Below are positions 3,090-60,204 of a stretch of DNA of 64,000 nt, one piece after another. The stretch is from positions 15,837,318 through 15,901,317 of the forward strand of contig CM026429.1 in the NCBI GenBank assembly GCA_014871385.1, in the 5' to 3' direction. The translations under genes were made by a program, and so were the position numbers. Positions within the stretch are counted from its first letter, which is position 1, and the number at the start of each line of letters is the position of its first letter. This DNA is from Ceratodon purpureus (taxonomy: Eukaryota; Streptophyta; Bryopsida; Pseudoditrichales; Ditrichaceae). The notes beneath the pieces were generated by a model. That model worked only from the letters and a program-made list of their open reading frames with translations. It was not told the origin of the DNA and did no database searches.

Positions 3090-3275
3090 CGTGTCCGTCA
3101 TCGTCGGCGGATGCTATTTCTGGGCACACTCCGAGTCGTACGATCCGCGTTGGCTGGAGGGAAGTTACCATGCGTGCTGCGAGCGGCGAGCGGAGAGCGG
3201 CGAGCAGAGAATGGCGAGCACAGAATTTACCTTTACCAAAATTTTCAGGACTAATAATACCCCTATAACCGCGGG
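3090..3275. repeat. Left arm of a family A inverted repeat
   Basis: The reverse complement of 3171-3207 (a run of GCTCGCCGCTCTCC units ending GCAGCACGCA) matches 20114-20150. The reverse complement of 3259-3271 (CGGTTATAGGGGTA) matches 19958-19970, followed in both by AGTCCTGAA. The arms face each other across 16.6 kb and each lies just upstream of a family A gene that reads away from it. They are either shared promoter sequences of a divergent gene pair or terminal inverted repeats of two separate copies. Confidence 0.65.
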
Positions 3276-3927
3276 AAAAAACAGAAATTTGCCATTTTTT
3301 GTAGTTACTTTTTTTAGAAAAGATGTGTAATTCCGTGGATTTCTGGGTTAAAATCACTTTAGTTTATTATGTATTTACCAAGAGGTATAAATTAGGGCTG
3401 ATGTCATGATGACGTCATGCATATATATTTTTTGATTTGCGATGGGTTTAGGCAAGATACAATGATCAGGCGTTGAGTTTTAGATCAAACAAATAATTCT
3501 TTCATAGGTTTATGTGAATGCACAAGGAAAAAATCAAGTTTCACAGATCCTAAAGAAGTCAAGGTCTGAAAACTTCCTGGAATATTTCAAAATTCGTGTA
3601 TAATATCTTAACTGCTAAAACCAAGATATACCTTCTTGGAGTCCTTGTCTTCATCGAAGATTACTCTCTCTTCCTAGGCAGCAAAGCATCTTCATTTGAG
3701 TGATACAAGTAAGAGATTCTTATCATGAAACAACACTTGGTAAGCAAGGTTCCACAGGAGGAGGCCACTCTTGGTTTCTTGAGCTTGTTTCTAGGTGGCG
3801 TATTAGGATAGTGACACAGTCCTTGGCATTCTGTGCTGTATGTAAAGGTAGTGTAGGAGTTCGGGGGGGTCAATCTGCAACCTTGCGTGGAACGTTTTAA
3901 GATTTGAACAATTTAGTGTGTTGCACG

Positions 3928-4299
3928 ATGCCGAAGGTGCGTAATGCAAGACTGAGGAGGACGAGAGCGGCTGTAGGTTTGGCCCGAAAGGCACCGGCGA
4001 GTTATCAGGAGCTGCGGCCCTGGCTTCTGGAGGTGGAGCGCGCCAGGGAACGAGGCATGGACCTGCCACCGTTTAGGCACATCGGAAGCCTCCATGTTGG
4101 TGAAGGTGAATGGCGTTGGACAGTGCTTTGTACCAATGAGCTTCTCCGTATCATGGAGCTGTCCCTAATCCCGTATCCCTTGCCATCCACTGTGGAAGAG
4201 AATCCAGTTGTTCAGCTGCCCGAAGTGATCATATCGGATGGCAAAACTTGCTGGTTTGATATCGACAAGAGTTGGACTGTATATCCTCCGAAGGATTAG
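3928..4299 (+). CDS. Small ELRPW-motif protein, unknown function
   Basis: A single-exon ORF of 123 residues from the first ATG. The N-terminus is basic (MPKVRNARLRRTRAA); the core contains ASYQELRPWLLEVERARERG, then PPFRHIG, WRWTVLCTNELLRIMEL, PYPLP and SDGKTCWFDIDKSW. A second copy of this family is encoded at 24852-25373: ELRPW, a P-F-I segment, W-W, EL-L-I and a proline-leucine stretch line up in the same order. That the ORF is conserved in two places is the main reason to believe it is real. No known family was recognised. It lies between the family A left arm and the S1-like gene, so it may be cargo of the element inserted there. Confidence 0.55.
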   Translation: MPKVRNARLRRTRAAVGLARKAPASYQELRPWLLEVERARERGMDLPPFRHIGSLHVGEGEWRWTVLCTNELLRIMELSLIPYPLPSTVEENPVVQLPEVIISDGKTCWFDIDKSWTVYPPKD

Positions 4300-4768
4300 T
4301 ACTATAAAGACTAGAAGGGTATTCGTGTGCAATGAAGGAGTCCAGAAGAGTGAAGACGAAAGAACGAGTCTTTCTGTATTTAGCAAGGAGAGATATTCTT
4401 GCCTGACTTGGTGTCTGGGTTTCTCCGAAGAATGAGTGAGCTTGGAATTATAAAAAAAGATTACTGTTTGTAATCTAAGAGTTTAGGATCATAGGTCTCG
4501 ACGGAGAACAGATGATGTCAGTATTATGAAAACCAAAGATTAATATTTAAAGAAATTTCTAATAGTAAAGGAAGTCTCGGAATAATAGCTGAGATGGTAT
4601 CATGAGAGAGGTTGTCGTCCACTGAAGATGAATTCTAGTATTCATATTTAAAGAATATTTCTAAGAGTGTTTTGAGTATAATTGTAAAATGGGAGGAATC
4701 AGAATAATATAAAATGGTCGACGTATATTATGTAATTTATGTATTACAACGTCTGTAACTAATATATT

Positions 4769-5800
4769 TCAGAGTTCCGTGTGCTGTAGTTTTGGACGCT
4801 TTGGCGGTTGATCTTCATCGTCAGGTTCCCCTGTCCGCTTCCGTATTGGAACCCAGTCAAATCGTTTTTCCCAGATTGATCCGGTTTGTCCACATCCAAC
4901 TCGGTCCAGCCAAATCCCTTCATTGTCTGCTTTCCATGCACAATCTATACAGTCAATAGGCATTGAAACGTGATTCACTAGAGGAGGTTTCCATATTTTA
5001 ACATCTCTACGATATGCCATACTCCCCAGGTCTTTAAATTTGCATATCCAGGGCGAACTGAGTAAACGCTCGTCGGTGCGTGGATTTAAGGATATGTAAA
5101 AAAATCGTTCGGAAATGTGTGCTCGAAGTCGTCCAGGAATTTTCACAGTATTCATTGGCGCATCCATAACTCCAAATGTAAGTAGTAGTTCATCATCGAG
5201 ATCATTGAAAATAGACACTCTATACTCCTTCAGAAATTCGTGGTGGTCCTCGTCCTCCTTCCATTGCTTAAAAAGCTTGTACTGATGTCTCCCGCTAAAA
5301 GGATGGAACTGAGAAACATACAGACCATCTCGTTCAATATTCCATCGGCACAAATATGTATCAGGGCTGGGACCTTGTTCACAGATTGGACAATGGTCAT
5401 CGTTGAAATTTGCAGATTCGTGCCGCATAAGACGAGCATGGGGATGCTCCCAGATGCACATGTGATCTATCTCATACTTTATGGCACAATTCCATTCGCG
5501 GATTTCGTATTCAAAATCACAAAACAAATTATCTTCGAAATCGAGAAGACCGCGGCCAACTTCAACATTTGCATGAGGTTTGATTTGATAAAGTACGACA
5601 TTTTGCGTTTTTGGCACACCATGATCATAGACCTTTTCGAAGCAATCTAGCCATACCTTCTTGGGAATATTATTTGTAATTTCAACTGGTGACAATACAT
5701 TCTGTATAATTTCCTCATCAAATGATTGTACTAGTCGGAAAGTTGTCAGAATTAAGACATAGAGTAGTGAAAAAACGCATTTCAGTCCATGACCTTCCAT
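4769..5800 (-). CDS. Secreted S1-like (S-protein homologue type) protein
   Basis: Single exon, 343 residues from the ATG at 5800. Residues 8-26 (VFSLLYVLILTTFRLVQS) form a hydrophobic signal peptide, so the product is probably secreted. The segment around residues 75-145 has the signature of plant self-incompatibility S1 / S-protein homologues: NLFCDFEYEI, a cysteine-tryptophan pair, then LCRWNIERDGLYV. The protein is longer than the usual 120-150 residue family member: about 200 further residues end in a basic, proline-rich tail (PPKRPKLQ). The family has roles in cell signalling and pollen rejection in flowering plants; in other plants its role is unknown. It sits next to the ELRPW gene and may be cargo. 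Its long C-terminal extension was not recognised. Confidence 0.5.
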   Translation of the reverse strand: MEGHGLKCVFSLLYVLILTTFRLVQSFDEEIIQNVLSPVEITNNIPKKVWLDCFEKVYDHGVPKTQNVVLYQIKPHANVEVGRGLLDFEDNLFCDFEYEIREWNCAIKYEIDHMCIWEHPHARLMRHESANFNDDHCPICEQGPSPDTYLCRWNIERDGLYVSQFHPFSGRHQYKLFKQWKEDEDHHEFLKEYRVSIFNDLDDELLLTFGVMDAPMNTVKIPGRLRAHISERFFYISLNPRTDERLLSSPWICKFKDLGSMAYRRDVKIWKPPLVNHVSMPIDCIDCAWKADNEGIWLDRVGCGQTGSIWEKRFDWVPIRKRTGEPDDEDQPPKRPKLQHTEL

Positions 5801-6926
5801 GCTATTTAAAAAATGTGAATTCAAATTGAATTATAATAATTATAAGAAAAAAATTTGAAGTTTACGGAGACAGCTATTTAATTCTTCAAATGTTCTGAAA
5901 AGGTGTTGTGAACTCTGCGTATCCATCAATATCACTTATGATGACTTTTCAATAACAGTTATACTTTTGGAATATAGAAATAGTCATAGTACAGCAGTTA
6001 TTTATTCGAAAGATTCCTGCAACGAATACATAAACCATTTCTTATAAAAATTAGACGACGAGCTTGGTAGCTATGCACAATGAATTGAAACTTGAAGTTC
6101 TTTAATTTGTTAAAATGAAACTTGGAAGTCTGAGTTTCATACTTATTGCAGAGTTCTAGTTTAGACTCGGATCAGATTGAATGAAAATCCGTAAAAACCT
6201 TATGAGACTTGCATGTGCATCCGTTCGCACTTAGGACATTAATTCGACTATTTCAGGGAAGAGGTTCTTTTGTTTTGAAGAAATAAGGTGAGCAGATTTG
6301 CATGAGAAACATGGAAACTTGAACACCTCAAAAGAGTTATAAGCACTTGCTAAGTTTAATGTCAGCAGTACACAGTAGAATCGCAGAAGTAACTCCTCTA
6401 CCTACTGTTAATATATATATTCAGTTGTTACAGAAAACTGTGTGGCACAATCCATGTCTCCTCAAATCCTCAGTGTATTAGTGCTCGAACATACGCAGGA
6501 TTTGCACAAGATAAAATCGAAGTACGTAAAGTATACAGCTCACATTCTGGAGACCGGGTAAGTAAAGTGCAATAAAATGTTGGAATGGGTGAAGCTGAAC
6601 GAGATCATAAACGAAGACTACGGAATAAACTCATCATCACTTTCCGAAGCACTGTTTAAAATGAACGGGCAGATACTAGGATTATATTTTTTGCAAGGAC
6701 TAGATGAGGCACTCGAACTAGTAGAAGAAATCTGAGCTAACACTTCTGCTAGACCTTCAATGTAGCAAGGAAGTCTATCAGATCTGCTCGGTGACCGGTA
6801 CTCCCTCCAAAGACGCCTCAGATTTAGACGCCGACTGCGAAATCAAACTAAATGTTAGTTAGAAAGGAGAAAGTCAAAATAATAATTAAGAGCAGTACTG
6901 AAGGAAGGATGAAACTGGTAACGAAC
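5801..6926. other. Intergenic, AT-rich, no gene seen
   Basis: No sustained coding frame. A short stretch at 6770-6850 read on the minus strand follows a TTTCGCAG acceptor and could be a last exon of the ParB-methyltransferase gene, since a strong GTGAGTAAG donor precedes that gene's stop codon. The left boundary of element BC probably lies in or to the left of this stretch. Confidence 0.35.
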
Positions 6927-9900
6927 TTACTCACATAAATCTACAGCATCCTCCTTGGGAAGAACCTCCTCATCCTCGGTGACATCAGTAACTTCGGATG
7001 GCGCTACTGCATGAGGCACTGCCGCGGTCTTCTGAAGAGGATCCAGAACCTCCTTGAAAATGTTCTTATCACCTTCGAGTGCCACGATCGCCCTCCTTGT
7101 TGCCTGGGCGGCCAAGACAGAAGCCCCTAAAAGTACCATACGTAAACAGTTAGAAAACACGTACTTCAATGCAGGGCAGAAAGTAGTAACTAAAAATCTG
7201 GGGGATATGCTTACCAGTACCAGGAGAGAGGTCACAGACGATCCCATTTTCGGGGGTGAGTCCGCCAATCAGGAGCTCCATTAGGGCCTGAGACTTTTCT
7301 TTTGGACCTCTCCAAAGGAAGTCAGAATCCTTCCTCTTCAGCGCGGATTCTTCAGTTACAACATTGAAAAGAACATCATCCTTAGATAGGTTGATCTTCG
7401 CAAATTGAGGCCCTGTGACAATGGTAAGGCTCTTTGGATTCCTAGCCACAGGCTTGGTGAAGCTGCGCACTAACAAGACGGCCCGAAACATCAAGGTCTG
7501 CATTCACCAGAAGTTATATTAATAGGGTAGCAATCGAGAGATGAGGAAAAAAATAAACATGTGATGAACTTCACAATGGCGAAACCGGAAGCAGACAACA
7601 TACCAAACGTGCTGGGTCCAAAGGGTGAGTATGATGTAGAGAGTTGACAATGATCCACTATTTCTTCACGACCAGGTTGTTGTTCTTGAGGAAGCTTCCC
7701 AGAACCTTACTGATATGGCTGCTATCTGGAATGAAGAAGAGAAGAGCCCCATCATCGTGAAGGAAGCCTCGAGAGAAACCGACCGTAAGCTTTATGTAAT
7801 CCTTCACTAACTCATTCCACAGAGGGACATGCTCCGGATATTCTGATACCCCAGGGACATACAGTCCATCCGGAAAGTCCGCAATCACCAGGTCCGCAGC
7901 CGGTTTCTGATCAACCACTCCAAGGAAGTACTTTTGTCGACCTGCTCCAACCTGCTCGACAGAAAATGGTATAAATCCGAAATTATAAAAAATCATGCAA
8001 AAAAAAAGAAACAAATACACAAACTATAAGTGATTGGTGCCTCCAGCACTCGCATGGGCGATTGGCGCACGCGCATGAAGGAGCAGCAGATTGACTCTGC
8101 TGCTCCCTCACCCGCATGAGCCAAGGGCCCATGCGGGTGTCGATGAGGGGGCCCTCATGGCACTGCCGTCAACGGCAGTGCCATGGGAGGTGCCTCCAGC
8201 ACTCGCATGAGCCTCGGGCTCATGCGGGTGAGGGAGCAGCAGATTGACTCTGCTGCTCCCTCACCCGCATGAGCCAAGGGCCCATGCGGGTGTCGATGAG
8301 GTGGACCTCAAGGCACTGCCGTCAACGGCAGTGCCCTGGGAGGCTCCTGCAGCACCCGCATGAGCCTCGGGCTCATGCGGGTGAGGGAGCAGCAATGAAA
8401 CTCTGCTGCTCCCAAAAGGACTGCCGTTAACGGGAGTCCTTTTGGGAGCAGCAGATTGACTCTGCTGCTCCCTCACCCGCATGAGCCAAGGGCCCATGCG
8501 GGTGTCGATGAGGGGGCCCTCATGGCACTGCCGTCAACGGCAGTGCCATGGGAGGTGCCTCCAGCACTCGCATGAGCCTCGGGCTCATGCGGGTGAGGGA
8601 GCAGCAGGGAAACTCTGCTGCTCCCAAAAGGACTGCCGTTAACGGCAGTCCTTTTGGGAGCAGCAGATTGACTCTGCTGCTCCCTCACCCGCATGAGCCA
8701 AGGGCCCATGCGGGTGTCGATGAGGTGGACCTCAAGGCACTGCCGTCAACGGCAGTGCCCTGGGAGGCTCCTCCAGCACCCGCATGAGCCTCGGGCTCAT
8801 GCGGGTGAGGGAGCAGCAGTGAAACTCTGCTGCTCCCTCACCCGCATGAGCCAAGGGCCCATGCGGGTGTCGATGAGGGGGCCCTCTTTAAAAAGGTTGA
8901 AATCCGAAATAATGCACAAGGATGCATAGAGAAGATATGAATCGAGATAAATAGAGAGGTTTTAAATTACCTTAGTGAGAAATGCAATCATGGCCTCAAA
9001 GGAGGGTGGATATTTTCCTCTCGTAGACTTGTAGTCCACCATCATGTGAAAAGCCTCATCAAGAATGAGAAGCTTGGTCTGGTGTCGAGTGGAGGACGCG
9101 GCTGCCGACATGGTCTTCATGGCTGGAGGAATAAACTGGGAGGGAGCATCCTTCGAGGAAGATGCATGCTGAAGGCGCTTGAATTGTGGCCGGGGAGGTG
9201 GAGAAGGATTCGGCTCAGTTTCCGCAGGCTCGGTTTGTTGCACCTCGGTGCCTGCAGCGGTGTTTGCGGGTATGTCCTCCTCTATCTGCTCTTCAACCAG
9301 GTCCTCAGCCTTCCGCTTCGCCCCCCTTCCTTTCCTCCCCCTGGAAGTCGCCTTTCCCTTTGGAGAGCCCGCTGCTGCTTGCTGGTCTGGAGAATCCGAG
9401 GGCACAGCTGCTGGAATCTTCGCCAGAGCTGGCTGAAGAGAATCCCGAAGTGCCACATCAAAAGTAGGGCACTTTTTTGGGGGGCAGTCCATGTACCACC
9501 CACATCTCTCGTAATGAACGGGCTCCCAAGCCCTAAGCATCGCGGGTGTATACATACACTCAGAATTTGAAGTATCGAGGTAGTTAGGGAAAAAGGCCGG
9601 AACCTTGGAAATTGCCTTCCTCGGGAGGAGAACATACTTGAAGTACCTGTAGAGAACCCTGCGAACAGCCGGAAAAAAATTCGGCTGCTGATCCGAGGTC
9701 TTGTTCTTATGCACTTGGTCTCCTGTGAATTCCCTGAAAAATGCAGAGTCCCACAGCTGGCACCTCATGGCCTCGACATAGTCAAAAATGTGTTGTACTG
9801 GATCGCCATCGTCGGGAGTGTAGTTAACCTCCACTCCCAAGTCCTGAAGAACTCCCTTGAAGAGCTCCTCAACCTCCACAGCTATCTGGAGGTAAAGAAA

Positions 9901-12900
9901 GAAGGCAAAAGGACAGTTAGTTAAGATTTTAAGAGTGTGCATAGGAACCCGCATGAGACTGGCGGTCGTGCTTGTTTAAGAGCAGCAGTGGTATTCTGCT
10001 GCTCCTTAAAGGACTGCCGTCAACGGCAGTTCTTTTAGGAGCAGCAGAATATCTTTGCAGCTCCTAAACCCGCATGAGCACCAGTCTCATGCGGGTGCAG
10101 CAACGCCTCCCTCAAAGGCACTGCCGTTGACGGCAGTGCCTATGAGGGAGGGCTTGCGGCACCCAAACAAGCATTTTGCTCGTGCGGGTGGAGGAGCAGC
10201 AGAGATAATCTGCTGCTCCCAGAAGGACCGCCGTTAACGGCGGTCCTTTTAGGAGCAGCAGAGTTTCTCTGCTGCTCCTGCACCCACACGAGCACAGTGC
10301 TCGTGCGGGAGCTGCAAGGCCTCCCCCTAAGGCACTGCCGTCAACGGCAGTGCCGAGGGAGGGGTCCACTGGACCCCGCATGAGCAAGGTGCTCATGCGG
10401 TGCAGGAGCAGCAGAGAAACTCTGCTGCTCGCAAAAGGACCGCCGTTAACGGCGGTCCCTTTTGGAGCAGCAGATTGTCTCCGCTGCTCATGCACCCGCA
10501 TGAGCACCTTCCGTGCCGAGGCTTATGAACATAACAAAATAATGGTGAATTTCAAGAATGATGAGAGATTACTTACTTGAGCCCACCAAGTGGCCTTATG
10601 GAGCCAAGGGGGAAATATGACGTCGGAAAAGTTTGGCTTGGGAAACTTGTATGCATCCCGAATGGCGACAGTAGAATTCCACCTTTGAAGCCACTTGATC
10701 ATCATGGGCGTGGGCATCGCTGATGTTGCCAACATCCACAGCTTCTCTTGCTGCATCTCCGGCTTATCAAATTTCTCGTAATGGAGTTTTACCTCCTCCA
10801 GAAATGCGGACGTGTGTTTCGGATCTGCAACCGGCAAGTACTTCCGTAGCTCTGCGCTAAGCTTGTCCTCCGTTGCCTTCACAGCCTGAGCAACCCACTC
10901 GTCGGCAGAGCGTTCGGTCCATTGCTCTGGGTCCGGGTATTTAATCTGAAACCTCTCCTGAGCAGCATGTGCGGCCTCTCCAAGCTCTTGCTGCACTCCA
11001 CAAGAATTTGTTTCAACAATTCAAATTATTATGTATCCCAATGCACTATAAGACAAAGCCGCGGCTTGGAGGTCATACCTGATAAAGTACTGAGCATAAT
11101 GCTTCAACCGAGAGTGTGTACCACGTCCTTTTTTTCCCGGCTTGTTTCTTCTTTGCAGCCTCCAGAACCGGCTGCGGTACTAAACCCTCAAAGTATGAGA
11201 TCGGCTGCGGTGCTATGTTTTGGACGCGGTACAGTTTGTGGACAAGATTAGTTGACACATGCGACTTCTGATTCCTCCTGGACATGTACAAAAGCAAGAA
11301 AATTAGCACGCAAAAATAAAGAGGACAAGATAAAATAAACAACGTATGGTCAAGGCTGCCTCACCAGTTTACTTCGTGTAAAGCAGTCAGCGCAGACGGG
11401 ACGTCCCCTTTCGGGTCGAGTATTACACTCTCCACCCTGTAATGCCAGTTGATGTCTCCCGAATGATACTCCTCAATTATCGGCATCCAGGCCTGCAACC
11501 TATGGTTACCATCCCAGACATGGAACATCTTATTCGAAAACATCAGCAAATCATCGTCCATGCGCAAGCTCTGCTCGAAGTCCTCATTAACCTCCCTCCA
11601 TTCCTTGGACCAGGAATTCTCGATTGCCGGGGTAACATCGGAAGTGTGGCCATGGTTGTCTTCAAGGGCAACATAAAAGTACCCATTACCCTCCATGTAT
11701 CCATCCCGAACGAAATGAGCAGCAAGGTTATTTACATCATTTTTTAGAAAGGGCCGAACAACTGGAAGTGACACCATACGACAAAGAGGGATAAAGATTC
11801 GGCCCTTAGCCTTCGGCTGCCACTTCAGTTTCTCCAGACGAGATGCAGTATTCACGGATTCCTTGTTGACAAGATCGTATAACTTCTGCTTCAGCCCCCG
11901 GTCCGATAAAGGAACTGTATCAAAACATTCTGAAAATTAAAAACTCAATCAGCTTGCAATGCAGATTCTAGTATGCGACTAGAGCATTCAACATTCATCA
12001 AAAGGAATCCTAAATTTGTAGTGCCATTAGGATGATATAGCGTCACCTTCAATGGTGACGGAGGTGACGCTGAGCCATCCCGAAGGCACTGCAAAAGCAG
12101 TGCCGTTAACGGCACTGCTTTTGCAGTGCCTTCGGAATCGCTCAGGGTCACCTCCGTCACCATCGAAGGTGACGCTGTCCGATTCCAATGGCACTGCCAA
12201 AGCAGTGCCGTTAACGGCACTGCTTTTGCAGTGCCATTGGGATTGCTGAGGGTCACATCCGCTTGGTGACGGCGGTGACCCCATGCCATTCCAAAGGCAC
12301 TGCGAAAGCAGTGCCGTTAACGGCACTGCTCTGGCAGTGCCTTCAGAATCACCACAGGGTCCCCTTCTTCACCAACCGAAGGGGACCCTGAGTGATTCTG
12401 AAGGCACTGCCAAAGCAGTGCCGTTAACGGCACTGCTTTGGCAGTGCCATCCCAATTGGACAGCGTCACCTTCGAAAGCTTTCGAAGGTGACCCTGGGCC
12501 ATCCTGAAGGCACTGCAAAAGCAGTGCCGTTAACGGCACTGCTTTTGCAGTGCCTTCGGAATGGCTCAGGGTCACCTTCGACAGCTTTCGAAGGTGGGCC
12601 CTGCGCCAAACCCAAGGCACTGTAGAAGCACTGCCGTTAACGGCAGTGCTTCTACAGCAACCTGTGGTAGCCTAAGAGCCCACCTCATCGGAGCATTGAC
12701 GGAGGAGAATGGCCGATCTCCTCCGTCAATGCTCTGATGGAGGAGGCTGCTCGGACAAGTAAGAGCGCACCGCAAAGGCAGTGCCGTTAACGGCACTGCC
12801 TTTGCGGTGCGCTCTTACTTGTCCGAGCAGCCTCCTCCATCGAGTTGAAATGTTTGAAATTTCAAAACAAAACCCAATGCGCTTACCTTGAGGTAGCGCA

Positions 12901-13022
12901 TCTGACGTGTCGCGGCTCTCCTCTTGGAGGTCCTCCGACGTCGGTGTGTTCTCGGGCTGGTCCTGGGTCTCCTCCACCCGATCTGACCGAGCTGCGGAGT
13001 GAGCTCCGGAGTGGCTCGCCAT
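6927..13022 (-). CDS. ParB-like / beta-class DNA methyltransferase fusion protein of element BC
   Basis: Eight exons join in phase: 13022-12887, 11929-11365, 11277-11079, 10990-10577, 9885-8971, 7951-7670, 7497-7215 and 7126-6927, giving about 997 residues. Residues 184-189 are WDGNHR, the nucleotide-binding core of ParB/sulfiredoxin-like domains. A helical region follows, then a Lys/Arg and Pro-rich linker (GRKGRGAKRKAED). The C-terminal third has beta-class order: motif IV-like DLVIADFPDGLY (768-771 DFPD), then RGPKEKSQALMELL, motif I CDLSPGTG (near 926) and RRAIVALEGD as the cofactor-binding acidic strand. Bacterial beta-class enzymes methylate adenine N6 or cytosine N4; here the catalytic DPPY is replaced by DFPD, so activity is uncertain. 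Splice choices are least sure at the 7670 donor and at the end, where a GTGAGTAAG donor suggests one more exon. Introns 1, 4 and 5 hold palindrome arrays. Confidence 0.75.
8030..8895. repeat. Nested palindrome array in intron 5 of the BC methyltransferase gene
   Basis: Alternating perfect or near-perfect palindromes: CACTGCCGTCAACGGCAGTG, GACTGCCGTTAACGGCAGTC, CCCGCATGAGCC..GGCCCATGCGGG and GAGCAGCAG..CTGCTGCTC. The composite unit recurs about every 210-320 bp with very high identity, indicating recent amplification. The single-stranded form would fold into strong hairpins. Open frames over the array are translations of the repeat, not genes. Confidence 0.9.
9945..10512. repeat. Palindrome array in intron 4 of the BC methyltransferase gene
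   Basis: The same composition as the array at 8.0-8.9 kb: GCATGAG..CTCATGCGG stems, GGAGCAGCAG..CTGCTGCTCC stems and cores GCCGTCAACGGC, GCCGTTGACGGC and GCCGTTAACGGC. Copies are more diverged than in intron 5. Confidence 0.9.
12010..12840. repeat. Palindrome array in intron 1 of the BC methyltransferase gene
   Basis: About eight copies of a long nested palindrome centred on GTGCCGTTAACGGCAC. Each is flanked by GGCACTGC(A/C)AAAGC and its complement, then by GGTCACCTTCG..CGAAGGTGACC stems. The core is the same as in the intron of the plus-strand transposase at 16.5-16.8 kb, which ties the two genes to one element. The array ends in a perfect inverted repeat at about 12740-12840 (GAGGAGGCTGCTCGGACAAG and its complement). 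Confidence 0.9.
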
Positions 13023-13426
13023 ATCATACAAAAACGAGAGGGTTTGAGTTAGACAGACAGCCCGATCTTTGGAACTACAAAAAAAAAAGAAACTACTTGA
13101 CAATCAGCCCGATTGTTGCAGTTACCGCGACAAGATGAGATCGCAGCCAAAGCCGAGGGCCGAGAGGAGAGAGAAGAGAGTTAGGTTATTTGTCTGATGT
13201 AAGAAGAAGGGGTCGTGTCGAGAATTAGGGCACGCGGTTTTCGCGAGCCTAGTTACGTGATTGACATAATGAGAGGCTATGGACTGAATTTAGGCTACTT
13301 AGAGTATTGGGACATAATGCTGATAATTGCAACCATAAAACCTACAGAGTTTGAAAATCCCTGGAAGTCTCTTAGGAAAACAATCACGGCATGAACTCTT
13401 AAACGATCTCAAAAAAAAAATCATAC

Positions 13427-13693
13427 CTTTGTTTCTTGGCCTTGCATTTGCTGGGAATCCGAACTCTTACTGTTTTCCTTCCTTCCTCTCCTTCCATACT
13501 GCTTTGGAGTATCTTCTGTGAGAGTACCTAATGCTTCCTCCACCTCCGTTCCAAAATCTAAAACTTTCTGTAATCCGGTAGTCTCTGAGCCCTCAGTCGT
13601 CATCTTTCTAGTTCTCATCATTCGACTATTCCTCAAAGCCTTTGCACTACTAAATAACAAACCTCTCCTTCTTCTCTTCTTCTTAATCGGAAC
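13427..13693 (-). CDS. Possible orphan exon, basic and glutamate-rich
   Basis: An 89-codon open segment bounded by an ATATGCAG acceptor and a GTATGA donor, phase 0 at both sides. It begins VPIKKKRRRRG, a nuclear-localisation-like cluster, and continues with a Glu/Thr-rich stretch. It lies between the ATG of the minus-strand methyltransferase gene and the plus-strand transposase. Splicing it in phase to the 13022 exon meets a stop before the ATG, so it may be an alternative 5-prime exon, a small separate gene or chance. Confidence 0.25.
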
Positions 13694-14248
13694 CTGCATA
13701 TCAGGACCTTAATCTGCAAAACATCCTGCCAGATTGCAAACGCTAACTTCGACATAAGGATGACTGAGTCCCGGGGAGGAATTGGGACTACAAGTTTTAG
13801 ACATTCTTTTGCACATTGCAAGAGGAGCCTCCAAAATTAAAACCAGTGTTCCTTGAAGCCAGTGCACAAAGAAGATTTAAAGTACTACCATCATTATCAT
13901 TAATGTCAAATCTGATACCAGATGATGATATTTATCTTTCAAATGACGGCTCAATCTAAAACTGTACAGATACCAATCAGAATGAATTATGCCCACGATG
14001 AAGATTTTATTAATCCGTTAAATGTACATCTGAGCACCCACGACCTAATTGAAACTGACGGCTTCTTAATTCACTGAAATCAATACTTCATTTCCCTTTA
14101 CATCTAAACTGAAAGCATATTGTGCTAATGAAATGAGGAATGAACCCAGCACATCTAATAAGTAGCGCACTTGTAATGCACTAATCTTCTCAACCAGTAT
14201 TCACTAATTCGTCTCGTCTCATTCCAATCTTCCAACACAGTGCCGAGA

Positions 14249-17200
14249 ATGGCGCATCTCCCTGCAGACAGAGTGTTAGGCATGGCCGTCCTCAGAGCTC
14301 ATGGTGTTGGGATACCACTTACAGTCAGGGTAGATGAGGATGGCTTGGCAACTGTTACAGCACAGCGCCTGAGCCTGAGGTTCCACTTCAGGGAGGAGAG
14401 TATTAGTCTAGAGGAGGAGATTTATGATGATGAGACCAAGGAGATTACACACACTCTGGATCAGGTTTCAGAGAAAGACGATGACGATAACAGGTTGTGG
14501 AACCTGTATCCCGGTAGATACAGAGTTTATGGTCTTACAGAGTCCCAGATACAGGCGTCGACTGAAATTCTAACTCCTCGTCGTTCATCTACTGTTCAGA
14601 CTCCTCTGCCATGCGATGTTAAGGTCAAATTAGAGCCAGGACTGGATACTCCGGATGTTCCTTCAGTCATCTCCCTTTCTTCAGACGAGGAGACAAGTCC
14701 GCTGAAAGCAGCTACTGCGGTTCCAAAACAGTCTGTAGAATCTAGAATGCCTTCGGATCTTCCTGTCAAGGGCCCCAATACCTCTCAATCTCCAATGGAC
14801 GAGACTGCCAGTGTAGTCCCTCTCATTCGGAAACTTGCGGAGAGACCAGGGAGGAGTAACATTTTGAAAAGAATAGATTTCTCCTTGGTGAGACACGAGA
14901 AGGTTGAGTACTTACCTGCTATGTTCGACGACAGCGTGATCTTTGAGCTCCCTCCTGTTGGTGATGGAGCCTCCAGGACGCAGGCAAAGGCAATGCAGGG
15001 AATGGACAAGCGTTACGATGGACATGTATGGACCAAGACAATCACAACCAACATCGCTAACGATTTCGGCCTCGCTTTCCGCTACTCCAGCTGCGTTGGT
15101 TGGCTGCGCTGCAACAACCAGGACTGTGCATTCCTCAACCGACGACCGCGAATTGTTGAGGTAAACGAGACCGAGTTCGACGGATGTACCCTGCAACCGT
15201 TTCAGGTAGCTCAGCCTCCACCAGCTGATTCATCAATTGTCTGCAAGGTATGTAAAGAGCCTCCTGCATGTATTGCTACATGTGGAGCGAAAGTTTATTA
15301 CGTGATTGGGAAACCCAACCAGAGCAGGGCATGTATCCATATCGGAACACATGATCACCCAGTCAAGGTTGGGGACTATAGGGATACAAAGGCGGAGATT
15401 GGAAGCCTAATTGAAGAGCAGGTGGAGATGATGTCTTCAAGAGCTACGAAGAGCGCTGTTGTCTTGGAGGCAAGTAAGGTTCTGATCGGCAGCTATCTTC
15501 TTCAGCCAGAGGACTCATCGCCGAAGAAGCTGAGCATGGAGGAGCTTATCCCGGTCTTTGATCGCTGCAAAGACATGGCATCCCCGAACATCCGCAACAA
15601 AGTTATGACGTTTTGTCGACTCAGAAGGTATGGTGTTATGGACGCAATCACTAAACTCCGTGGTATCAGTCTCTGGGCGTTCGTCCAAGAGAACAAGTTT
15701 CCGGGTCAGGGGGCCGAACGGGAAAAAGTCTTTGTGTTCAAGATGTCCGAAGTTGGTCCCGGGAGTGGTGTCGACTTGGTATGTCGGATGCAAGCTGGCG
15801 GAGACCTTGAGAACGCATGGTTAATGTTCGACCACGTGAAACGTGTGACGAAATGGTCAACCATGGCTTGCCATGTTTACGACGCCACGTACTGCCGAGT
15901 GATGACAATCGCCAGCTGCGACATGCAATCCGAGGATACGGAAGCCCAGCTCGTCTTCTGGAAGAACCTGAATCTCGTCATGAACCGGAATGGCGTTGAT
16001 GCACCAAATTTCAAGGGCTTCATGGCTGACAATGCGCAGGCGAACTGGAATGCTGTGAGGATTATCTACGGCAATGGCAACAAAGAGGACCGAATGGAGG
16101 ATCGTGAGAGGTCCTGCCTCTTCTATTGGACTAAGAGCATGCTGCAGTATACAGTGAAGTACTTCCCTGAAGAACTCCGAGAGCAGCACAAGAAGATGTG
16201 TAACCAGTACAAGGCAGCTCAGAGTTTGACAGAGGCGGACACTCTGTACCACGCGTTGCGAGCCTGGTGGGTATCGACCGGGCTTCTGGGCGAGGTGGCA
16301 CTGACCAAACTGGATCAGTGGTTGGCTTATTGGCACCACCGCTACCGCCAGTGGGGAGGATTCATGTCTGGGGTAAGTTATCCCATGAACTGTGATACTT
16401 TCCTTTCATTCCTTATCATATCACCCTACTCAGAAGAACTTATTTCCATGGCTGTCAACGAAGGCCCTCGAGTGTCAACGAGGGCACTGTAAAAGTAGTG
16501 CCGTTAACGGCATTGCATTTGCAGTGCCGTCGCCTTCGCTCGAGGGTCCCTCACAAAACTGTCGTAGATGCTATCCTTCAGTTTCAACGAAGGCCGCCGA
16601 GTGTCAGCGAAGGCGCTGCAAAAGGAGTGCCGTTAACGGCACTGCTTTTTCAATGCCCAAGTTTGCACTTGGGGGCCCCTCACGAAACTATCCTGGAATC
16701 TATACTTTAGTGTCAGTGTAGGCCATCGAGTGTCACCGAGGGGGCTGCAAAAGGAGTGCCGTTAACGGCAGTGCTTTTGCAGTGCCCTCGTCTTCCCTGG
16801 AACCCCTTACTTAACTATCTTTTAATCTAACTAATTCCTTTGTCTACACTGCAGAAATTCACTGAAGAAGAACTTACAGAGATGCCCACCTGCAACCTCG
16901 CCGAAACTGTTCACAACAAGTGGCTCCAAGCTTCGGGGAACAACGGCAGCGATCTCTACGTTGCCACCGTCGATGATTATGTTCGGGCATTTCTACAGGT
17001 TGTTAACTATTACCAGTTTCTGAAGGGTGACCTGGGCGGAACAGGTCCATCGAAGAAAGAACTGAAGCTCAGGATGGCGGAGCGCAGAGCAAAAATTACA
17101 GGAAATCCTGCGCTTCTCGAAGATCCCATGCTGGACATGCCTGGAGCAGATGAGTTTTGCACCCGTGAACCTGTCATGCCTGGAGCAGAAGTATTTGGAT

Positions 17201-18348
17201 CACAGAAGCGGAAGGCCGACGTGCCCATCGGAGCTGAGGAGGAGTCACATCGCCCCGACATGGTTAACTTTTCGCGTCCAAGAGGTCCCGGGCGCGCCGT
17301 CAGACCCCGCCTTGTGCAGATGCCCGTGATTGTGGAAGACGATTCTGAACATGACGTTGAGGCAGAGGAGGACCAATCACCAGCACCGAAAGCTCCTTCA
17401 CCTTTAGCGTCACACGAGAATGAAGCAGGCATACGTCATGTCAACGCTGTAGAAGAAACGAAGGTGAATGAGAGAGAGTGGCACATCTCCAGGCTTCCCA
17501 AGACTTCTGGTAAGTGCTGCTGGGCCCAGAGAGCTGTTACGAAAAAAAAATGTACTGAGAAAATAGTGAGGGGCCCTAACTTCACTGCTGCACCGACCTA
17601 TACTGGAGTCTGGACTAACTATCGCAGGAACATAACTGAGAGGACAGAGTTCTTCTTCTGCTCCGATGATATTGAGCGCTGCGTGAAAGGCAATAAGCGT
17701 AAATGGGTAGCACACTACTCGAAGGACCAGGAAGTGCCCTCCATTCCTGAGATCTGGCTAGTGAAAATAGGTACTAACCTAAAGCTCACTGAGATTCTCG
17801 CTCTCGAAGCAGCAGGGTTTCAACTTCCGCAGAAGAAGCCGGTCTCCCCAAGACGCCTCTTCTCCTCTGCCCCGCTCCCTAAAAATCTCAGTTCGGTGTC
17901 AGTTCCTGCAGACGCTGACCGTTATCCGGGTAGGAGAGATGGCAAGATGGTGAAGCGCACTGCCACCCCCCCCAATACGGCGCAGCGACTCTCCATGGGC
18001 TCCTCCGAGTCCCTCAAAGCTCGTCTCCGTTCCATCATAATGATTCCTGAGCCGGGCCATGGTTGCATCATTCAGCTTGATTCCGGCATTGCCCCCAACA
18101 TCACACGTTACCATATCACCATCAGCTCTTGCCCTAGCTGCACTTGCCCTGCATTTAGGAAGACGATGACTACTTTTCGAGGCAGGGTTCAGTTCACTTA
18201 CTGTAAGCACATATATCACATCCTCTTGAAGGTGTGCAACCGTGATCCCGAAGCCGAGCTTTTCATCCATGCGCCTACCTTTAGTTTCAACGAAGTGAAG
18301 CTTCTCCTAGAGAGTGGAATCCTGACTCACCTCTCGGCCAAAAGATAA
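14249..18348 (+). CDS. MULE-like transposase with SWIM zinc finger, element BC
   Basis: Two exons, 14249-16372 and 16855-18348, join in phase to 1205 residues; the upstream GTG at 14240 is not a normal plant start. Order: an N-terminal domain of about 110 residues, an acidic Ser-rich linker, a cysteine cluster (CNNQDC near 287, CKVCKEPPAC near 331), then a catalytic-core-like region with FKMSEVGPGSGVDL, YDATYCRVMTIASCDM and FKGFMADNAQANWNAVR, then CLFYW. After the intron come NLAETVHNKW (candidate third acidic residue) and a SWIM finger (CTCPAF..YCKH) near 1133-1165. MULE transposases typically have DDE plus SWIM, so it should cut and join element ends in the nucleus. The plus-strand gene at 60.2 kb is a full-length relative without this intron. 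The minus-strand methyltransferase gene is divergent from it across 1.2 kb. Confidence 0.75.
16450..16830. repeat. Palindrome array filling the transposase intron
   Basis: Three copies of a unit about 125-130 bp long, each with GTGCCGTTAACGGCA flanked by GCAAAAG..CTTTTGC arms, separated by diverged CACTCGAGGG-like spacers. The whole lies in the 482-bp intron 16373-16854. The related transposase at 60.2 kb has no intron here, so intron and array may have arrived together. Confidence 0.85.
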
Positions 18349-18625
18349 GAGGCTAGAAACTTTGGATGTCAGGCATTCACATCGCGGGCAGTAGTTAATG
18401 TGGATGCTTAGTCACTGGTGATTGAATTTTTCCTTGTACTGAGTCAGCAATACAATTTCTGTATTGCCTATTTCAATATAAAGGTTTTGTCAATCACATT
18501 TACTCCATTGTGTAAGAGTAGCATTTGCATTGGACATCGGGCCTACTTACATTATCTCACCTAACAGTTGAAGTGTACTAGTGCCATCTTTACAAATTAT
18601 TAGCCACTTTATTCTTTCTACTTAC

Positions 18626-19061
18626 CGCATTTAGATATTCCCCTCGCATTTTCAGCTGAATCAGCAACCTCTGGCTGTACTACAGGACAAGCAACATTGA
18701 CGTTCACTGTTTGTTCTACACATCGAGATTGTCGTATGTGGGGACGTTTTGACAATGGACGCGCTTCACTCTTTCTACGCAGTGCTTCCCTAGAATAAGT
18801 CCCCGGAGGAATCTTCCCAACCTTGGAGTATGCATGACTTGAGAAGGGCAGGACCGTCTCCCTCTCAACAACTACACTACAGGTTGGCTCCTCTACCACC
18901 TTTGGTCCCCCTATGAGGTCTAATCCTACACTGACCGCAACGTTTCGTGAATGCCCTTCCCTGCCACCTTCCGCCTCATCTTCCCCTTCAACCTCCACAT
19001 ATGGTTGAAATGGGCCAACGACATCACTAAGTGAGACAGCAGTTTCTCCGATATCTTCCAT
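18626..19061 (-). CDS. Hypothetical protein exon, antisense and downstream of the transposase
   Basis: An open frame of 145 codons from the ATG at 19061 (MEDIGETAVSLSDVV) to a good GTAAGT donor after 18626. It is acidic at first, then basic (EALRRKSEARPLSKRPHIRQSR). No following exon was found, because the transposase 3-prime end occupies the DNA to the left. No family was recognised. Confidence 0.3.
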
Positions 19062-19957
19062 ACCCAAAAACACGCTCTACGTGGGAGTCGCTCCAAAAAG
19101 AGAATGCACAAAGAGGAAGAGACCTTCTACTGCCACTACCTAAATATCCTTGAACTGAGACGATGGCGCCTTTGAAACGGGGACCGTATAATGATTAATG
19201 AATTTCATCCTTTCGAAGTTAATCTGTCTAGGACCGTTAGCACTATTCAAATTGATTTGAAATCGGAAGTAAAGAATTAAACATGGAGGGGCACCAAACG
19301 AAAGGCCTACGTTCAGAAGCCTTAGTTCAAAGTTTTTAAAAATTTAAATCCGAAAAAAAAATTAAAAAAAATAAAAATAAAAATGAAATATAAAAAATTA
19401 CAAGAAGAATTTAAAAAATAAAACTTAAAAAAATAAAAATAAAAATAAAATTAAAAAATTAAAAAAAATTGACTAAAAAAATTAAAAAAACAAAAAAAAA
19501 AACCACAATGGTAGAAAAGAAATCTCTGGAAAAAGCTAGCAAAGTGGGTGTGTGTACACCGAGCGCAAAGAAGGATTTCCGTGGACAATTTGGAATGGAA
19601 AAAAAAGAGTAAATAGAAAATGAGCAAAGAATAATTAAGAAGAAAATGAACAAGTAATTAGAGAGTACATAGGCACAGAAATCAGAGTACACGATGGAGG
19701 AATAGAGTGGATACACCAATCAGGAATTGACAAGATTATTAGAATGGAAGAAGATGGAAAGCGAAACAAATCCAAATAATTACTACAATAAGTAATATGT
19801 TGGATGTCATATACTTGTGATTGGAAGAGATAAATTAATTTGAAGAAAATGACATAAAATTCACTAATTTAATTAAGGACCTTACAAAATATAGGATTAG
19901 TACACGAACAAAGCGGGAAGGTAATACATTTTTAGTATACAAACCTTGTTCAGTCCA
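19062..19957. other. AT-rich intergenic stretch with A-rich low-complexity block
   Basis: 19340-19510 is almost pure A with AAAAATAAAAATT-like units. The remainder is AT-rich with no coding frame. The right boundary of element BC probably lies here; I could not match it to a left end by eye. Confidence 0.5.
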
Positions 19958-20220
19958 CGGTTATAGGGTACGGAGAAAGTCCTGAATCTTAGAATATTCT
20001 AAGAATATTCTAAGAATATTCCCAGAATGTTCGAATATTCTAAATTTAAATTCGAATTTCAGTCAAAAAGTTACTTTTTAAAAGCTTTTTACTGCTCGCC
20101 GCTCTCCAAATCACCGCTCGCCGCTCTCCGCTCGCCGCTCGCAGCACGCATACAAGTCTCCCTCGCGTTGGCTGCCCGCCGAGTCGTCTTCGTTGTCGGC
20201 GGATACATTTTACTCCGTCG
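19958..20220. repeat. Right arm of the family A inverted repeat
   Basis: Contains the CGGTTATAGGGTA motif at 19958-19970, then the GCTCGCCGCTCTCC-type units at 20092-20150 and GTTGGCTGCCCGCCGA near 20170. The counterpart on the opposite strand is at 3090-3275. It ends about 60 bp before the ATG of the DUF7869 gene, so it doubles as promoter and leader. Confidence 0.65.
19992..20040 (+). promoter_or_regulatory. Heat-shock-element-like array of five GAAnnTTC dyads
   Basis: GAATATTC occurs at 19992, 20003, 20014 and 20033, and GAATGTTC at 20025. The first four are exactly 11 bp apart, one helical turn. Plant heat-shock factors bind alternating GAA and TTC blocks, and GAAnnTTC is the basic dyad; here consecutive dyads are separated by 3 rather than 2 bases. 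It lies about 240-290 bp upstream of the DUF7869 ATG and is absent from the left inverted-repeat arm. Confidence 0.5.
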
Positions 20221-25373: not shown

Positions 25374-25384
25374 AACGACAAAAT

Positions 25385-49508: not shown

Positions 49509-50350
49509 GGCGCGGGCGCCACATGCCAAGGAGTATAAAATCTGTTCACGCCTCATTCCATATAATCGTAGACTAGTCAGATTGAAAAATGACAGGATCT
49601 TGAAACACTTTAATGTAACCGGCAAAAGGATGAAGAATGCGAAAAAGGAAGATTGTTGACGGTTAAACAATGAAGCCATGATTTTCAAAAGGGAGATTGA
49701 AACTCCAGAAACACGCCTAATGAACGCGAAATCCAAGCATCAAGATTTAAAGTAGACACTGCCGAAGCCATACACCACTCTGTCCCACATAAAAATCCGT
49801 CCAACTAACAACCATGTCTCCAACAAAGTTACAAACTGAATGTAAAAACGACGTCCAACAATTAGGTGGAAACAGACATCGTTTGAATCCAGAGCAACGG
49901 CTACTCAAATCATGACAGAATATAAGCATCCAACAGGATCGCACAAAATAAAATCAATCATGGCCAACATCCAAGGGAAGCAGAACAGTTTCTGGCGCCA
50001 GCGCCAACAGAATTAACGAGCATACGCTCTGTAAATTGTCGTACTTTATACAATTGATATCAAACATAAAAGAACGGGGGCGATTTCAGTTGGCGCCAGC
50101 GCCAAGAAGAAGATCACCATAACGAGCGATGGATTGGCATATAATGTGAGCACCATGATAAAGCATCAGAAATCAGCACATGAATTAAACAGTTATAAGC
50201 AGGCAACGAGAAAAAGTATCATATATTCAAAATGGAACAAATATCAGCATCATAAGAACGAGGATAATTGATACTGGATATTTGATAATAAGGAACACTG
50301 TAACCAACATGAAATGTTAAAACTTCACTAAACAACGATGCAGTGACTAA

Positions 50351-50986
50351 TCAAGAAGTGTAAGTCGGCTGAATCTCAACTTCCTCCCACGTGCCGGTAT
50401 CAGTCACAATGTAACGCGCAGTACCTCGGTGAATCCAGGTGACACCGGCGTCGTTCAGCTGCCAAAAATGCATAACTTGCATGCGGATACGCCCAATTAT
50501 CTGCCGAGTGATGAGGACTTGTCCAGGGAGAAGACTCTCCCACTTGCGGCTTAGAAAAAGACAGATCCGATCAGAGACCGGCCCCACACTAGCGCCTTTT
50601 ATAAGGATTAGATGCGGCTGGTAAGGGAAGGAGTCGATTCCGATCCCTTGGGTAATCGAAAGCCATGAAAAACAATCCACGGGACATGGAGAAAGCAGTG
50701 GAAAAATCCCCATCAGAAGTTTGAACAATCGGCCTGATGACAGTGACCTAAACCATCGAGTAGTCAAGACTGGATTAGCCACGACTGAGTCCTGATTAGG
50801 TTCAAAATCAGAGTCGCTGCTGTCACTTTGATCGCTAATAACTTCCATACCCCCAGAGAAATCAGCCCAGCGCAGTGCTTTCCCTTCAAAAATCTCATGA
50901 ACTTCCGGATATGTCGGAATCGCTACCAACTGTGATTCTCCAGCATCATCCCGATTAGCAGCTCCGATAATGGTGGATTTTACCAT
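50351..50986 (-). CDS. Unrecognised protein of element D (211 residues)
   Basis: Starts at ATG 50986 (MVKSTIIGAANRDDAGESQ); the frame extends upstream past a CTTCAG, so a leader intron is likely. Contents: a short acidic Ser/Asp run (SDQSDSSDSDFE), a hydrophobic centre (LLMGIFPLLSPCPVDCFSWL) and a C-terminal part rich in beta-strand-like residues ending TGTWEEVEIQP. No family recognised. It lies at the left end of the element, transcribed in the same direction as the ParB-methyltransferase gene. Confidence 0.4.
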   Translation of the reverse strand: MVKSTIIGAANRDDAGESQLVAIPTYPEVHEIFEGKALRWADFSGGMEVISDQSDSSDSDFEPNQDSVVANPVLTTRWFRSLSSGRLFKLLMGIFPLLSPCPVDCFSWLSITQGIGIDSFPYQPHLILIKGASVGPVSDRICLFLSRKWESLLPGQVLITRQIIGRIRMQVMHFWQLNDAGVTWIHRGTARYIVTDTGTWEEVEIQPTYTS

Positions 50987-51550
50987 CGCAATACTGAAGG
51001 ACAAGAGAAAATGATAAAAGTCGATTAACAAGCAGAACAAGAGGGTCACTGAGATGTTGCAACCGTCTACAAAACGACACCGAAGCTAGATTTGAAACAA
51101 GCCAAGCCCTTGTTCAGATATATAATCAGTTGCCTGAGTAAGTGTTTTAAACCAACTGCGACAGTACATAAGTACATCAATTTAAAAAGCAAAACATATT
51201 ATAACAGCAAGAACAATAGAAAATCAAACAACGTTCAGAGTAAAGGCCAATGCACACTAGGTCAGCCGGATTGCAATACACCAAGATAGAATAAGGATCC
51301 AACAAAGTAGATACCCAAATTGTGGCAATAGCAATGGCGAATCAGTGAGGATCCTGTACAACTTAAACCAACGCTGGGAATGGCGCTTGCAATGCGATGT
51401 TAATAAATGACTGTCCGGCAGACTGAAAAACTGGCGCACTCTGCTTTGGACCGAGAGCTATTAAATATCAAACCAACCTTGATCAACTAACATGTTCTCC
51501 CAAAGGCTATGTATTCAGTATCGCCAACATTTTGAGAATTCAAATATGCT

Positions 51551-52115
51551 ATGACTGGAGCTAAGCGGGGCGCCATGGCTGGAAGTAAGCGGGGCACAAG
51601 GGCTGGGACTAAGATGGGTGCGATGACTCGAACTAATCAGCGTGCAAAGGCTGGAACTTTGCTGAGAGCAAGGACAACACCTAACCGGAAGTCACCACGC
51701 GGTAGCAGCGGCGGAGGTAGAGCTGAGAGGTTGTCACCGATTAACTCCAGTCACGGGTGTGCTGGTAAGCGCAGCTTACTATTCAAATTGTGCGTTTCTG
51801 AAATGTGGTGTGAGAATTTGAAATCATCTACTGTGCATATGTTTTCTTGCAGAGGCCTACTGCCTATGGCATACTGAGTACAGCACGAGCCTTGATTTCA
51901 CTCCATGGTTCCAGAGTTTAGACAAAGCGGAGGAAATGACAATGGCGATAGTGAATGACAGAACGAGTTCGACCCCACTTGACAATGTAGCGGCAGATGA
52001 CAGGAGCCCGACGAAACGTGGAGTGATTCAGGATAGCGTGGAAGTATCGGCCGCGTGGGATTTCATCAGCAATTTCTGGGTGGACATTGTAAGTGACGAC
52101 GACGGTACAACATAG
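51551..52115 (+). CDS. Small two-exon protein with basic repeat N-terminus
   Basis: Exons 51551-51764 and 51853-52115 join in phase (GTAAGC donor, TTCTTGCAG acceptor), 158 residues. Residues 1-40 are short basic repeats of the kind AGxKxGxxAGT, likely DNA- or RNA-binding. The second half is acidic with aromatic residues (TPWFQSLDKAEEM, AWDFISNFWVDIVSDDD). Clean splicing and the frame staying open for 88 codons after the join support a real gene. Function unknown. It converges on the methyltransferase gene end at 52424. Confidence 0.45.
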
Positions 52116-52423
52116 GCATTTTGATTTGTGCAATTAAATTATAGAGTGATCAAATTCTGTTCTTGCTACGCACACACTAGGTTTATTCAATCTTGCCAGT
52201 TCATACAAGTAGTTGTCAATGCACTTGGTTGTCCAGGATGAACAGTATATATTTCACGAATTATGCCAGGAATTACAACTAGCAGCAAGTGCGAAACTTA
52301 TTAGCACTAGTCATGGATAAATTCAAACGCCATCGACCGTAGTTGGCTCACATAAGAGCACTATAGAATGGAAGTAGTGCAAACAGTGATGCCTCAAGAA
52401 GATGTAACCTACAATTTTCCTAA

Positions 52424-59710: not shown

Positions 59711-60204
59711 TGTTTGGAATACAGCTGACCAAGGAGACGTATTGCAAAAACCTAGAATCACGAGGTCCACAAGCTGACAGATGGAAAAGTCGTGCAGCGT
59801 GGATAAGAACGGAAGATACGGCCTATTTATACAAGTGCCAGCAACAGTCAGCGTTGTTTATAGTTCCGTTGTCAACAACTCCTCATTCCCGAGGCACCTA
59901 CAACTAATTTGAAACGTCTCTCTGTAAGATTGTGATCTAACGTCGCTAAAAATTGAATGGTGAAAAGTAACGAGATTCGATCTTCGCAAATAGCCGTCAA
60001 AGTGTGAAGGAACTTCAATTACCGACCGTTTTAGGTGTCATATCTCTTAATACGAATTCATCACAATTCCAGAAATCCGTTCAAAGATGGTTATCCGTTC
60101 AAAGATGGTTATCCGTTCAAGTATGGTGTATAAGTGGATTGGTACGCATTCTGATAATTTCCAGCATATCCCCGTAACCCACAATCCAGTACTCTGTCGT
60201 TGAA
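59711..60204. promoter_or_regulatory. Compact bidirectional promoter of element D
   Basis: Only 494 bp separate the ATGs of the two divergent genes. For the minus-strand gene a TATAAATA box is the complement of 59824-59831, about 115 bp before its ATG. On the transposase side three units of TTATCCGTTCAAAGATGG (the last varied to CAAGTATGG) stand at about 60078-60126, roughly 80-125 bp before the plus-strand ATG, a plausible regulator or transposase binding site. Confidence 0.5.

Follow-up and report, generated by a model that had tools for sequence, protein, structure and literature searches.

A conserved intronic dyad in a 17-kb transposon of the moss Ceratodon purpureus that pairs a transposase with a ParB-methyltransferase-like gene

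We analysed a 64,000-nucleotide stretch of contig CM026429.1 of the moss Ceratodon purpureus (below, the window; positions are counted from its first letter). It carries a DNA transposon, element 1, with a transposase gene and, divergent to it, a partner gene for a ParB-methyltransferase-like protein. Transposon genes of this kind are already known from algae (PMC12477816), and the moss case varies a known theme. New is the observation that one dyad, TGCCG-N4-CGGCA, recurs in seven diverged relatives, in corresponding introns that apart from it can no longer be aligned. The explanation that we favour, with a probability of about one half, is self-recognition by the partner protein, most likely anti-silencing and VANC-like in its working.

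A sequence-only reading of the window, which had correctly taken the host for a plant of the bryophyte kind, proposed a mobile unit at 6927..18348. That span does hold both main genes, but the element is larger: the BLAST boundaries common to copies elsewhere place it at 3157-20164 (17,008 bp). For this comparison the window was set against the surroundings, 30 kb each, of six close transposase copies (c1, c2, c5, c8a, c8b and c10). The left end at point 3157 was found in four copies (c2, c8a, c10 and c8b) and the right end at point 20164 in five (c1, c5, c8a, c10 and c8b). Terminal inverted repeats of 49 bp are present, identical at 43/49 positions, and target-site duplications of 10 bp flank all four copies that have both ends (window, c10, c8a and c8b), with a different sequence in each copy. 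In the 362-Mb assembly, exon 1 of the transposase had eight full-length matches, the window copy included, at 98-100% identity; therefore, the family moved recently. Ends, duplications and near-identical copies support the proposed mobility: element 1, a DNA transposon of 17 kb, has been active recently, and its ends are like those of Mutator-like elements (MULEs).

The partner gene (13022-6927, minus strand) has eight exons, seven introns that are all GT..AG, and 1,019 residues. The transposase consists of two exons on the plus strand. The main features of element 1 are as follows.

3147..3156, unstranded: left target-site duplication, GCGTTGGCTG, the same 10 bp at both ends
3157..20164, unstranded: element 1, whole, 17,008 bp, by the BLAST boundaries in copies
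3157..3205, plus strand: left terminal inverted repeat, 49 bp, 43/49 matching the right one
20116..20164, minus strand: right terminal inverted repeat
20165..20174, unstranded: right target-site duplication
12887..13022, minus strand: partner gene exon 1
11365..11929, minus strand: partner gene exon 2, domain with the DGNHR motif (ParB-like)
11079..11277, minus strand: partner gene exon 3
10577..10990, minus strand: partner gene exon 4
8971..9885, minus strand: partner gene exon 5
7604..7951, minus strand: partner gene exon 6, motif IV position (VIADFPDG), one in-frame stop in the window copy
7215..7497, minus strand: partner gene exon 7, motif X and start of motif I (WRGPKEK.., DLSPGTG)
6927..7126, minus strand: partner gene exon 8, end of motif I, motif II and stop
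14249..16372, plus strand: transposase exon 1, DDE-like core
16855..18348, plus strand: transposase exon 2, SWIM-like C terminus
8164..8754, unstranded: dyad array, intron 5 of the partner gene
10015..10453, unstranded: dyad array, intron 4 of the partner gene
12101..12795, unstranded: dyad array, intron 1 of the partner gene
16499..16770, unstranded: dyad array, transposase intron

The palindrome GCCGTTAACGGC occurs 21 times with at most one mismatch, compared to 0.06 occurrences expected from shuffles. Its four arrays (8.16-8.75, 10.0-10.45, 12.1-12.8 and 16.5-16.77 kb) are all intronic, three in the partner gene and one in the single intron of the transposase; the sequence-only reading had already noted four arrays and the palindrome in introns of both genes. 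As a conserved unit we had to reject GCCGTTAACGGC itself, since the lineages share TGCCG and CGGCA around a variable 4-base spacer. The centres include TTAA, TCAA, GTAC, GCAC and TTGC among others, and the two half-sites are common to them.

This pattern was followed in 12 sequences: the window, four close copies and seven diverged relatives. The regions c1 and c5, each without one end, were left out of motif and exon counts, and c2 was included despite its missing right end. Exons 2 to 8 of the partner gene stand in the correct order in 12/12 sequences, and the ParB-like exons of the seven relatives are 61-77% identical. The dyad scan used half-sites of 5 bp that contain three or more different bases, spacers from 0 to 8, and 20 shuffles for each sequence. 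TGCCG-N4-CGGCA was among the top three dyads in 11 of the 12; in the twelfth, relative L031, the top dyad was a GGTACC-centred form with another outer base. The best dyad among the 20 shuffles of a sequence reached 3 at most. All seven relatives carry sites of their own lineage's core word in intron 4 and upstream of exon 2, as scattered sites in place of arrays in L027, L032 and L033, and with extra sites in a later intron in L031 and L032.

Of the 199 exact dyads in the 12 sequences, not one fell within a matched partner-gene exon. Four copies (67,955 bases) held 97 sites, and their 52,045 bases of flank none; each close copy held 18 to 32 exact sites. Between lineages intron 4 could be aligned only over 22-64 bp in the stretches listed, compared to exons at 65-85%. 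The 14-bp word is conserved while its background no longer aligns, a pattern that selection on a binding site would leave.

The two genes travel together. Candidates were scored for the best 58 of 2768 hits to the transposase exon and for the best 150 of 1867 and 150 of 1628 hits to the partner-gene exons, the totals being lower bounds. A scripted count found a divergent ParB-like exon within 20 kb of 49 of the 58 scored transposase exons, and in five more we found by eye a correctly placed partner exon 6 at 4.6-6.3 kb. The partner gene thus stands within 20 kb of the transposase in 54/58 scored cases, compared to about 0.24 under random placement of the 150 scored ParB-like exons. A chance neighbourhood of two genes is ruled out by the copies, the ends and this co-occurrence. 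The two divergent genes had been read as one unit, and both the gene models and the pairing bear that out; their proposed joint function gains indirect support from the conserved dyad in the introns of both. As a separate observation, the largest contig, C6 (110.5 Mb, 30% of the assembly), carries 73 of the 150 scored ParB-like exons, with 2 of the 12 closest and 21 of the next 32. C6 would fit the large sex chromosome of Ceratodon.

The identity of the partner protein rests on motifs and profiles. In exon 2 the DGNHR motif has invariant G, N and R, with D and H nearly so, among 58 sequences, and we take it to be the GxxR active-loop motif that marks the ParB/Srx superfamily. No ParB match was found in Pfam, and none in PDB (best E 0.087, unrelated); one of nine members matched a ParB-like PHROG at E 0.057 and one of nine DndB at 0.17. 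Exons 6-8 gave weak but consistent profile matches to N6-adenine/N4-cytosine (N6A/N4C) methyltransferases: a PHROG DNA methyltransferase in 8/8 relatives (best 4.9e-09), Pfam N6_N4_Mtase in 7/8 (best 4.7e-05, member 1 below the curated cut-off) and DpnA in PDB at 4.4e-04. Their motif order is, as we assign it, that of beta-type methyltransferases, and the GxG of motif I is retained. The catalytic motif IV of beta-type N6A/N4C enzymes is (D/N/S)PP(Y/F/W). In the sequences that cover this motif the partner protein has instead (D/E/N/Y/Q)-x-P-D-(G/N), with D at the aromatic fourth position; exceptions are c8b and P0023, perhaps one locus, where S replaces P. The methyltransferase label is a fold assignment, and methylating activity is doubtful because motif IV is non-canonical.

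A single-protein search of 5.8 billion proteins gave nothing at E 1e-3. With profiles and an E limit of 1, one search found 34 matches among 8000 scored candidates and another found 302, the best 120 of which were listed. A phage search for relatives of the partner returned 201 records at E up to 10, with a best E of 4e-3 among the 10 listed. A prokaryotic or viral source of the gene was considered and rejected, as 0 of 15 viral and 0 of 135 genome pattern matches encoded a relative at E 1e-3.

The partner gene is under purifying selection. When element 1 is compared with c10, the ParB-like exon shows a ratio of nonsynonymous to synonymous divergence (dN/dS) of 0.028, and the methyltransferase part one of 0.114. 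The in-frame stop in exon 6 of the window copy is absent at that place from the other 11 sequences; further stops were seen in c8a (one, exon 8) and L027 (one, exon 5). Synonymous divergence between element 1 and c10 is uneven along the gene, about 0.49-0.63 in exons 2 and 4 and 0.23 in exons 6-8, a hint that element copies may have recombined or undergone gene conversion with one another.

The transposase had been labelled MULE-type. VYD, FMAD and NLxExVH are kept between transposase families that are only 30% identical, and we tentatively assign them to the D-D-E triad. A SWIM zinc finger was matched at E 0.39 by the whole protein and at 0.019 by a C-terminal fragment, both below the curated cut-off. 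Element 1 resembles MULEs in its terminal inverted repeats and in its 10-bp target-site duplication, which lies within the MULE range of 8-11 bp (PMC6446971), and may resemble them in its SWIM-like C terminus. Unlike MULEs, it has no match to the Pfam MULE domain, either with the whole transposase or with the core of the two families, and it carries a ParB-methyltransferase-like partner and three further open reading frames (ORFs). The label, drawn from duplication length, inverted repeats, the weak SWIM match and the DDE-like motifs, is weaker than the sequence-only reading had put it.

VANDAL elements are of the MULE type. In Arabidopsis VANDAL21, the protein VANC21 binds a 9-base motif that is repeated in introns and other non-coding parts and is highly enriched in the family (PMC5735166), and it causes loss of DNA methylation there (PMC5735166; PMC10398659). 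VANDAL elements have several likenesses to the moss element: a second gene whose evolution is faster than that of the transposase (PMC5735166, PMC10398659), a family-specific short motif in introns and other non-coding parts that is rare in other families, and arrays gained and lost between related copies. Element 1 has the VANC-type feature of family-specific motif arrays in the introns of its genes, as an analogy of working and not of membership. The proteins differ: VANC has DUF1985 and DUF287 (PMC5735166), neither of which matched the moss protein in Pfam, compared to DGNHR and methyltransferase-like domains in the latter. VANC motifs are described as asymmetric, whereas the moss motif is a dyad; VANC binding and the ensuing methylation loss have been demonstrated, whereas binding of the moss dyad is predicted from its sequence. 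Since the layout is similar to VANDAL21/VANC21 and the protein parts are unrelated, self-recognition, most likely anti-silencing, would be the best explanation.

The pairing itself, which the sequence-only reading had called unusual for eukaryotes, has precedents. The giant DNA transposon Sola1-1_Ec32 of the brown alga Ectocarpus, like element 1, carries a gene with ParB-like and N4C/N6A methyltransferase domains on the strand opposite its Sola-1 transposase, and its authors suggest self-binding (PMC12477816, 2025). The same paper cites green and red algal cases. The protein lengths are near, about 1,020 aa in the moss and 1,104 aa in the alga, but the algal transposase superfamilies differ (Sola-1 in Ectocarpus, giant EnSpm in red algae). 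In the text consulted, PMC12477816 describes neither binding sites nor arrays of a motif nor an altered motif IV, and the likeness is drawn from the description. In the literature searched, primary sources of the algal cases aside, we found neither a moss case nor a candidate target site for ParB-methyltransferase transposon genes. To our knowledge, no self-binding sites are known in the fungal DNA transposons with TET/JBP dioxygenases. These likewise carry a gene for an accessory DNA-modification enzyme, but of another class (PMC12730594).

Under self-recognition, the ParB-methyltransferase-like protein, probably as a dimer, would bind TGCCG-N4-CGGCA and thereby recognise, within the host genome, the copies of the element that encodes it, the many sites per element providing an avidity that would restrict the protein to self. 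Once bound, it would most likely shield the element from host silencing or re-open it, so that transposase could be made, as VANC does for VANDAL. Because motif IV reads x-x-P-D-G/N and not DPPY, we regard the protein as probably mainly a binder, perhaps still binding S-adenosylmethionine, rather than an ordinary methylating enzyme. More diverged elements would have shifted to other motifs, so that each family may recognise only itself.

Two neighbours in the window bear on this last point. The layout of element 1 had been said to recur at 52-64 kb, and a divergent gene pair (unit 2) is indeed there, but with a motif of its own.

52767..57627, minus strand: unit 2, diverged relative of the partner gene, three matching pieces
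60205..63999, plus strand: unit 2, diverged transposase in a single open frame that continues past the window edge
49509..63311, unstranded: unit 2, GGCGC-N2-GCGCC at 17 sites, each with one mismatch or none

The partner-like gene of unit 2, divergent to its transposase, is 26-30% identical to that of element 1 in the three pieces, and the transposases are 30% identical over 688 aa. The 17 sites, better written GGCGCYGGCGC, compare to 0.67 expected over the whole window. Unit 2 does not carry the element 1 palindrome, and two of its sites (63219 and 63300) lie inside the transposase open frame, so that not all are intronic. We also observed that the orientation of GGCGCYGGCGC (49995-63300) follows transcription: minus beside the minus-strand gene, plus where the transposase lies. 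Two sites, 53973 and 55959, match in either orientation.

Element 1 is itself nested in element 3 (window 1-3146 and 20175-26100). Both flanks (1-2242 and 20246-26024) carry TCGGC-N5-GCCGA, with 19 exact sites in the window compared to 0.01 expected, and element 3 encodes a DUF7869 protein (22168-24198, E 9.4e-44). An ORF at 1780-164, in which a GGQHTFEA motif was noted by eye, has a dyad array of element 3 (1819-2242) immediately upstream. We considered element 3 as a further ParB-methyltransferase case and rejected it: profile comparison, Pfam, PDB and PHROGs gave nothing, and GGQHTFEA was seen by eye only. The target-site duplication of element 1 falls within a near-match of TCGGC-N5-GCCGA (one mismatch) at 20168. 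To the left of the window, in L041, two neighbouring ORFs of the FCP1/NIF phosphatase type (1191-1901 and 1-873) belong to the element 3 region, one matching PF03031 at E 5.7e-14 and the other assigned by eye; they are apparently accessory genes adjoining the element 3 dyad. The three ORFs of element 1 beyond its two main genes are the following.

3928..4299, plus strand: small ORF, 123 aa, 38% over 68 aa to the ORF 25397-24855 (minus strand) in the neighbouring element
4769..5800, minus strand: ORF, 343 aa, weak Pfam match only (Self-incomp_S1, E 0.017, below the cut-off)
18618..19061, minus strand: ORF, 147 aa, no Pfam match

The small ORF is common to two elements with different transposases, suggesting an exchange of accessory genes between elements.

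Each of the three elements in this window thus has a repeated word of its own. In a wider form of the proposal, which we hold tentatively and at less than even odds, giant transposons of mosses with at least two kinds of transposase would each have a private recognition code, in which a protein made of a bacterial-type ParB and a methyltransferase without its catalytic motif reads a word dispersed over introns and other parts of its own element. TGCCG-N4-CGGCA, GGCGCYGGCGC and TCGGC-N5-GCCGA would then be mutually exclusive, and the logic of VANC/VANDAL would have been invented independently.

Other explanations of the dyads have to be weighed against self-recognition by a binder. The partner might be a catalytically active methyltransferase of N6-adenine or N4-cytosine and modify the dyads of its own element, which would be protected or activated by the modification itself. 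The beta-type motif order, the matches to N6_N4_Mtase (7/8), PHROG (8/8) and DpnA and the retained GxG of motif I speak for it, and the authors of the algal cases put it forward (PMC12477816); a DPPY-like motif IV was present in no sequence read, and we consider this unlikely. Quite improbable, in our view, is that the dyads are internal binding sites of the transposase, serving transposition or autoregulation, with the partner protein doing something else. The transposase is encoded in the same element and dyads stand in the introns of both genes, but no element 1 dyad lies in or near the terminal repeats, where such sites would be expected. At the DNA level the transposase exons (mostly 77-85%, with 68% over one stretch) are also more similar than the partner gene (65-76%), which alone does not settle the binder.

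To about the same low degree we credit the reading of the palindromes as intronic RNA hairpins that control splicing, or feed or block the production of small RNA. It would account for the intronic position of all element 1 dyads and for symmetric arms that average 21-25 bases in close copies; the asymmetric unit 2 motif follows transcription on both sides, as do, by eye, most element 3 sites. Yet in the seven diverged relatives the arms average only 7.5-13.3 bases, the 5-base half-site included, and the unit 2 motif, with its 2-base centre, would form no stem-loop of that kind. Arm mismatches on the sense strand were of the G-U type in 64 cases and of the A-C type in 69 (p 0.73), with no excess of G-U; in the absence of a strand bias there is no sign that RNA folding is conserved. 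Neutral satellite-like expansions, begun by chance in introns and inherited without function, would fit the variation in copy number among close copies (18 to 32 exact sites), but the core persists in matching introns of lineages whose introns cannot be aligned and is absent from partner-gene exons and flanks, which makes this explanation very hard to believe.

Several observations weigh against self-recognition by the partner protein. Element 1 has no dyads at its ends or between its genes, although an anti-silencing factor might be expected to act there, and the ParB assignment, which draws on the DGNHR motif, reached significance in no profile search (Pfam, PDB, PHROGs). In the methyltransferase part dN/dS is higher in very close pairs, 0.275 (c8a) and 0.35 (c10 compared to c8b), and 1.3 with c2, a value resting on a handful of changes; synonymous divergence is mostly saturated in comparisons between lineages, and the five close copies are not independent of one another. 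L031 has a single exact TGCCG-N4-CGGCA, its sites bearing another outer base, and two shorter 8-base TGCCGGCA words, not full dyads, occur in exon matches of L032 and L033. In the relatives, intron 1 was assigned by position, as exon 1 was not reliably identified, and the dyad survey there covers the partner gene.

The algal ParB-methyltransferase genes had previously been guessed to bind and modify their own element (PMC12477816), and the conserved short dyad makes the guess of self-binding testable by gel shift. If self-recognition by the partner protein is true, sequence-specific self-recognition of transposons would have evolved at least twice in land plants, in the moss with prokaryote-like parts, and a methyltransferase fold may have become a reader of DNA. 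It would also help to account for the continued activity of very large elements in a plant with transposon silencing.

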